From an uncultured Nitrospirota bacterium (lineage in GTDB: Bacteria > Nitrospirota > Nitrospiria > Nitrospirales > UBA8639): a stretch of DNA of 64,000 bases. A program made the position numbers and the translations under genes. The first letter of the stretch is position 1; every line of letters starts with the position of its first letter. Location: NCBI GenBank assembly GCA_937139405.1, contig CAKZPV010000003.1:248001-312000 (forward strand), read 5' to 3'. This document shows positions 17,133 through 17,178 of the stretch, one piece after another. The notes under the pieces were generated by a model, which did not search any database, was not told the DNA's origin, and saw only the letters and a program-made list of their open reading frames with translations.

Positions 17133-17178
17133 CTTTGGGAGCAGGATGTCGGAGGTTCAAATCCTCTCGCCCCGACCA
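17133..17178 (+). other. 3' fragment of tRNA-Pro(UGG): attachment-site scar (att) at the element's right end
   Basis: The 46 nt run from the anticodon loop (CTTTGGGAGCAGG) through the variable loop and T-arm (GGAGG-TTCAAAT-CCTCT) to CGCCCCGACCA, which matches the usual 3' half of bacterial tRNA-Pro(UGG). Nothing before it can form the 5' half: the bases to the left are TGATCAC, not a D-arm or the CCTGC stem. A lone tRNA 3' half is the standard product of integration into a tRNA gene; the restored full tRNA-Pro should be at the element's other end, outside the window. Confidence 0.8.

Follow-up and report, generated by a model that had tools for sequence, protein, structure and literature searches.

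Background

Integration into tRNA genes is a common route by which mobile DNA enters bacterial chromosomes. In the tRNA-gene islands of Islander, the tRNA gene is split on integration and made whole again by island sequence, and the far end is marked by a displaced fragment (PMC4383910). Integrase-only and P4-like islands and satellites that carry defence genes have been described in E. coli (PMC10121019). Here we describe an element that lies mostly within a window of 64,000 nt, the whole stretch of DNA that was analysed (G000:C3:248001-312000; window positions are C3 coordinates minus 248000). Like the Islander islands of anticodon-loop subsite A, it has a same-orientation 3' fragment, an internal tyrosine integrase and a size between 2 and 200 kb; its integrase frame is broken, and this is the one difference that we found (PMC4383910). 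It also shares a tRNA site, an integrase, a small HTH regulator, a primase/helicase, defence-like cargo and the lack of recognised transfer genes with the P4-like and integrase-only islands of E. coli, from which it differs in its genes and its host (PMC10121019). The element resembles the integrase-only islands and satellites of E. coli, but we do not class it as a satellite. The integration event itself is ordinary; the part of interest is a cargo protein.

A displaced tRNA-Pro fragment and its intact partner

As the original prediction had it, the 3' end of a tRNA-Pro(UGG) gene stands without a 5' half at window position 17133. Because both ARAGORN and Rfam call a tRNA-Arg(TCT) gene at 17289-17365 (forward strand) as the only tRNA in the window, the proline piece is a fragment and not a full tRNA. 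The prediction gave the fragment 46 nt and placed it 110 bp before the tRNA-Arg gene; its place was right, but the exact repeat measures 47 nt (17133-17179, forward strand), from the anticodon loop to the CCA end plus one A, and the gap is 109 bp.

We searched the whole source genome (4.46 Mb in 51 contigs) for a second core. A query around the fragment matched C3:245276-245328, within an intact tRNA-Pro(TGG) gene at C3:245245-245321, on the same contig and left of the window; the tRNA-Pro(CGG) and tRNA-Pro(GGG) genes are among other, weaker matches. The exact 47-nt repeat occupies C3:245276-245322 and C3:265133-265179, with a start-to-start distance of 19,857 bp, and the expectation for an exact 47-mer match by chance in 4.46 Mb is about 5e-22. 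Both cores point the same way, the 3' piece lying downstream and the intact tRNA at the other end, and no third copy is present in the window. The genome therefore holds the second copy on which the prediction depended, in an intact tRNA-Pro(UGG) gene that adjoins an integrase, left of the window where it was expected.

We are highly confident that positions 17133-17179 are the attR core of a 19,857-bp integrative element targeting tRNA-Pro(UGG). Judged from the att cores, the empty sites described below and base composition, the right 17.1 kb of this element fills window positions 1-17132, and its left 2.7 kb lies outside the window at C3:245276-248000, with attL, the integrase, a 72-aa ORF and the start of a SIR2 gene. 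Its GC content is 0.40, lower than that of the flanks (0.446 and 0.46). One border of the element is an intact tRNA gene and the other a displaced fragment of it, oriented alike; the interval between them holds a tyrosine integrase gene, split in frame. It was also proposed that everything to the left of the fragment is likely mobile; this holds for a block of 19.9 kb, whose left limit at C3:245276 lies 2.7 kb beyond the left end of the window and in which the integrase frame is broken. These exact borders allow the defence-like genes in the left part of the window to be classed confidently as mobile cargo.

Empty sites and a proposed integration history

Using the gene left of tRNA-Pro as an anchor, we located the homologous site within the genus. 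Two same-genus genomes, G006 and G013, present the empty site that the original prediction had called for: tRNA-Pro(TGG) is followed after about 95 bp by the intact tRNA-Arg(TCT) gene that here is the first chromosomal gene past the element, with neither element nor fragment between them. These relatives do not keep the fragment in the absence of the element, and joining our flanks in silico at the core restores their gene order. A third genome, G017, carries at this site a sister element of 10.9 kb with phage-type genes, a second exact 47-nt core and an intact integrase of 402 aa, about 70% identical to ours in both halves. The second core, the integrase, the empty sites and the sister elements agree in making the fragment the right end of an integrated element. 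No genome was found with the same element at another place.

We infer that a tyrosine integrase recombined the attP of the element with the chromosomal tRNA-Pro(UGG) gene. The attP would have carried a copy of the 3' part of this gene, starting at the anticodon loop, and the incoming copy would have joined the chromosomal 5' half, restoring an intact tRNA gene at the left end (attL). The presumed original 3' piece would thereby have been displaced 19.9 kb to the right, where it now stands before tRNA-Arg. The backbone comprises the integrase and the divergent 72-aa ORF, both located at attL, together with a primase/helicase of phage type and an HTH protein that resembles excisionases. A SIR2-nSTAND1-histidine kinase-receiver protein, a DRT8-like reverse transcriptase and several hydrolase genes of low GC content make up the cargo.

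Backbone and hydrolase genes

The tyrosine integrase gene lies directly right of the intact tRNA, on the opposite strand and pointing toward it. It is split into an N-terminal open frame of 204 aa, with a SAM-like integrase domain below the cut-off, and a C-terminal frame of 251 aa, which matches Phage_integrase (Pfam, 2.9e-25). Alignment with the intact G017 integrase places one missing base in the overlap of the two frames, in a short G/C run, and the related integrases are stop-free in nearly all cases among the matches listed; the frameshift is either real or an assembly error at that spot. Since the frame is broken, present-day mobility is doubtful; if the frameshift is real, excision probably depends on an integrase supplied from outside the element. 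The divergent 72-aa ORF next to the integrase also adjoins the integrases of sister loci.

Further to the right, the reverse strand encodes a small protein with a weak zinc-ribbon match below the Pfam cut-off (5083-5385), a phage-type primase/helicase with Toprim and AAA_25 domains (5593-7278; Pfam AAA_25 2.6e-28, PHROG DNA primase/helicase 3.9e-39), an excisionase-like HTH_17 protein of 63 aa (7447-7638; HTH_17 3.2e-10, PHROG excisionase 5.8e-8) and a 252-aa ORF without a Pfam, PADLOC, PHROG or NCBIfam match (7752-8510). No transfer genes were recognised in the element. A low-GC block of cargo genes follows at 9403-16156, encoding a putative Ig-domain protein (9403-10323, forward strand; He_PIG 5.6e-10) and, on the reverse strand, an FG-GAP repeat protein (10687-12165; FG-GAP_3 1.5e-31), a trypsin-like peptidase (12111-13436; Trypsin_2 6.5e-21), an LCAT-like acyltransferase/lipase (13451-14998; LCAT 2.9e-17) and a hydrolase-like protein (15188-16156; DLH, below the cut-off).

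Alternative origins

Fragments of tRNA genes have several possible origins, and the proline piece might be a decayed tRNA-Pro duplicate left by ordinary local duplication, with no mobile DNA. We regard this as highly improbable: an integrase adjoins the intact copy, the two copies are exactly identical and share one orientation with the 3' piece downstream, the fragment begins, like those of known islands, in the anticodon loop (PMC4383910), G006 and G013 have empty sites without it, and sister elements carry the same double core. Less remote, but still unlikely, is an origin from a prophage that has since decayed, as opposed to a non-viral island or satellite. The sister element of G017, at the same tRNA, has capsid-like and tape-measure-like genes (as read from translations), and our primase/helicase and excisionase-like protein match phage families; however, none of the scanned proteins was recognised as the product of a structural, packaging or lysis gene. 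The integrase, AlpA/excisionase-like regulator and primase/helicase make up a gene set like that of P4-like or PICI-like satellites, here without recognised structural genes.

The block could also be a stack of at least two elements, with the backbone and defence genes arriving by integration and the hydrolase genes (9403-16156) later by another route. GC content is 0.495 in the integrase and 0.472 in the primase/helicase, compared with 0.376-0.402 in the hydrolase block; LCAT-like homologues occur in only three other genomes among 197 of the order; and since the sister loci showed no counterpart of the hydrolase genes, a later insertion is conceivable. Yet there is no third core copy in the window and no clear repeat at the borders of the hydrolase block, and we hold such layering to be possible but doubtful. 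We retain the reading of a tRNA-Pro(UGG)-targeting integrative element of 19,857 bp.

A SIR2-STAND protein with a histidine kinase and receiver

SIR2 NADases are known as defence proteins, among them ThsA of Thoeris, DSR1/DSR2 and the Avs5-type SIR2-STAND proteins. Detocs is a two-component anti-phage system in which a histidine kinase and receiver are linked to an effector. The leftmost cargo gene (C3:247380-250721, forward strand) encodes a protein of 1113 aa, the C-terminal 906 aa of which lie at window positions 1-2721. In one continuous frame it combines five Pfam domains: SIR2_2 (1.1e-27), nSTAND1 (3.4e-42), HisKA (8.1e-7), HATPase_c (1.5e-25) and Response_reg (2.3e-16). The SIR2 part aligns with ThsA and retains TTNYD and KMHG, and inspection of the sequence also shows the H-box of the kinase, the Asp of the receiver and the Walker motifs. 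The kinase and receiver together are CckA-like, with no more than 31-35% identity to the other kinases encoded in the genome; we therefore reject a recent capture of this part from among the host's own kinases.

The fusion shares with the SIR2 defence proteins a SIR2 domain followed by a STAND NTPase. It has the N-terminal SIR2 and central STAND NTPase of an Avs5-like protein, but it ends in a hybrid histidine kinase with receiver (HisKA-HATPase_c-receiver) in place of a repeat-type sensor; no Avs model appears in the PADLOC table for the element, and we do not class the protein as Avs. Like Detocs, it links a histidine kinase and receiver to an effector, but here kinase and receiver sit in one protein together with SIR2 and STAND, and the same PADLOC table holds no Detocs model.

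The SIR2-STAND part was matched in only 4 of the 296 genomes of the phylum, our own included (E <= 1e-25). Across genome contigs, relatives were found with a two-sequence SIR2 alignment, the SIR2-STAND part alone as query returning none. All five domains recur in a homologue from an Acidobacteria MAG (L084), where type I restriction-modification genes are its neighbours, an Opitutaceae MAG (L085) has a SIR2-kinase-receiver protein without STAND, and G047, of the same order (L070), encodes SIR2 and kinase as two overlapping frames. Viral contigs gave a single distant SIR2 match. When plasmids were searched with the whole fusion, the matches listed were to its kinase part only, and none covered 80% of the fusion. 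No description of a SIR2-STAND-histidine kinase fusion was found in a literature search of incomplete coverage, and the available parts of two conflict-system papers describe none. The architecture is rare yet common to different phyla, by descent or by transfer.

The SIR2-STAND core and the neighbours of the Acidobacteria homologue make a role in defence likely. We tentatively suggest that the fusion represents a new class of anti-phage sensor, in which a hybrid kinase/receiver would control a SIR2 NADase and STAND in cis, so that phosphorelay, and not the binding of a phage protein by a repeat-type sensor, would trigger NAD+ depletion. The domain order is retained in the Acidobacteria homologue; the Opitutaceae protein and the overlapping ORFs of G047 retain it with STAND missing. 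The fusion raises the question of whether phage sensing in a STAND defence protein can be taken over by a histidine kinase.

An adjoining DRT8-like reverse transcriptase

The gene adjoining the fusion (2911-4542, forward strand) encodes a reverse transcriptase that matches PADLOC Drt8 nearly full length (2.1e-117 over residues 2-479 of 493), the next-best model being RT_UG20 (3.8e-38). From this match, the protein probably fits DRT8. A purine-nucleoside-phosphorylase effector is listed with DRT8 (PMC10952713), and none was recognised in the island. No functional link between the fusion and the reverse transcriptase was found. A joint system of the two was considered and is unsupported: the fetched SIR2 loci have no homologue of the reverse transcriptase, and the short loci of four genomes with such a homologue have no SIR2 fusion.

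Repeated use of the tRNA-Pro/tRNA-Arg site

The best 12 integrase loci, our own included, all adjoin a tRNA gene (7 Pro-UGG, 3 Gly-CCC and 2 Arg-CCT), and this clade of integrases is therefore tRNA-targeting. In G371, a 46/47 copy of the core lies about 10.7 kb from the tRNA-Pro gene. In this lineage, elements have integrated repeatedly at the tRNA-Pro/tRNA-Arg pair.

A remnant of 1.9 kb extends from tRNA-Pro to a second exact core in G014 (L069; G014:C7, 1821-3790) and contains only a scrap of integrase; it is an orphan att core in decay. In G008 (C17:11354-55470; L044-L046), the tRNA-Arg(TCT) gene has integrases on both sides, a displaced 5' fragment of 42 nt on the left and a 3' fragment of 43 nt on the right. 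Two elements have apparently entered this one tRNA gene from opposite sides; islands with 5' fragments are rare, at 159 of 3919 in Islander (PMC4383910). Just right of tRNA-Arg in our window, 462 bp (17562-18023) are 89% identical to a stretch in G007:C81.
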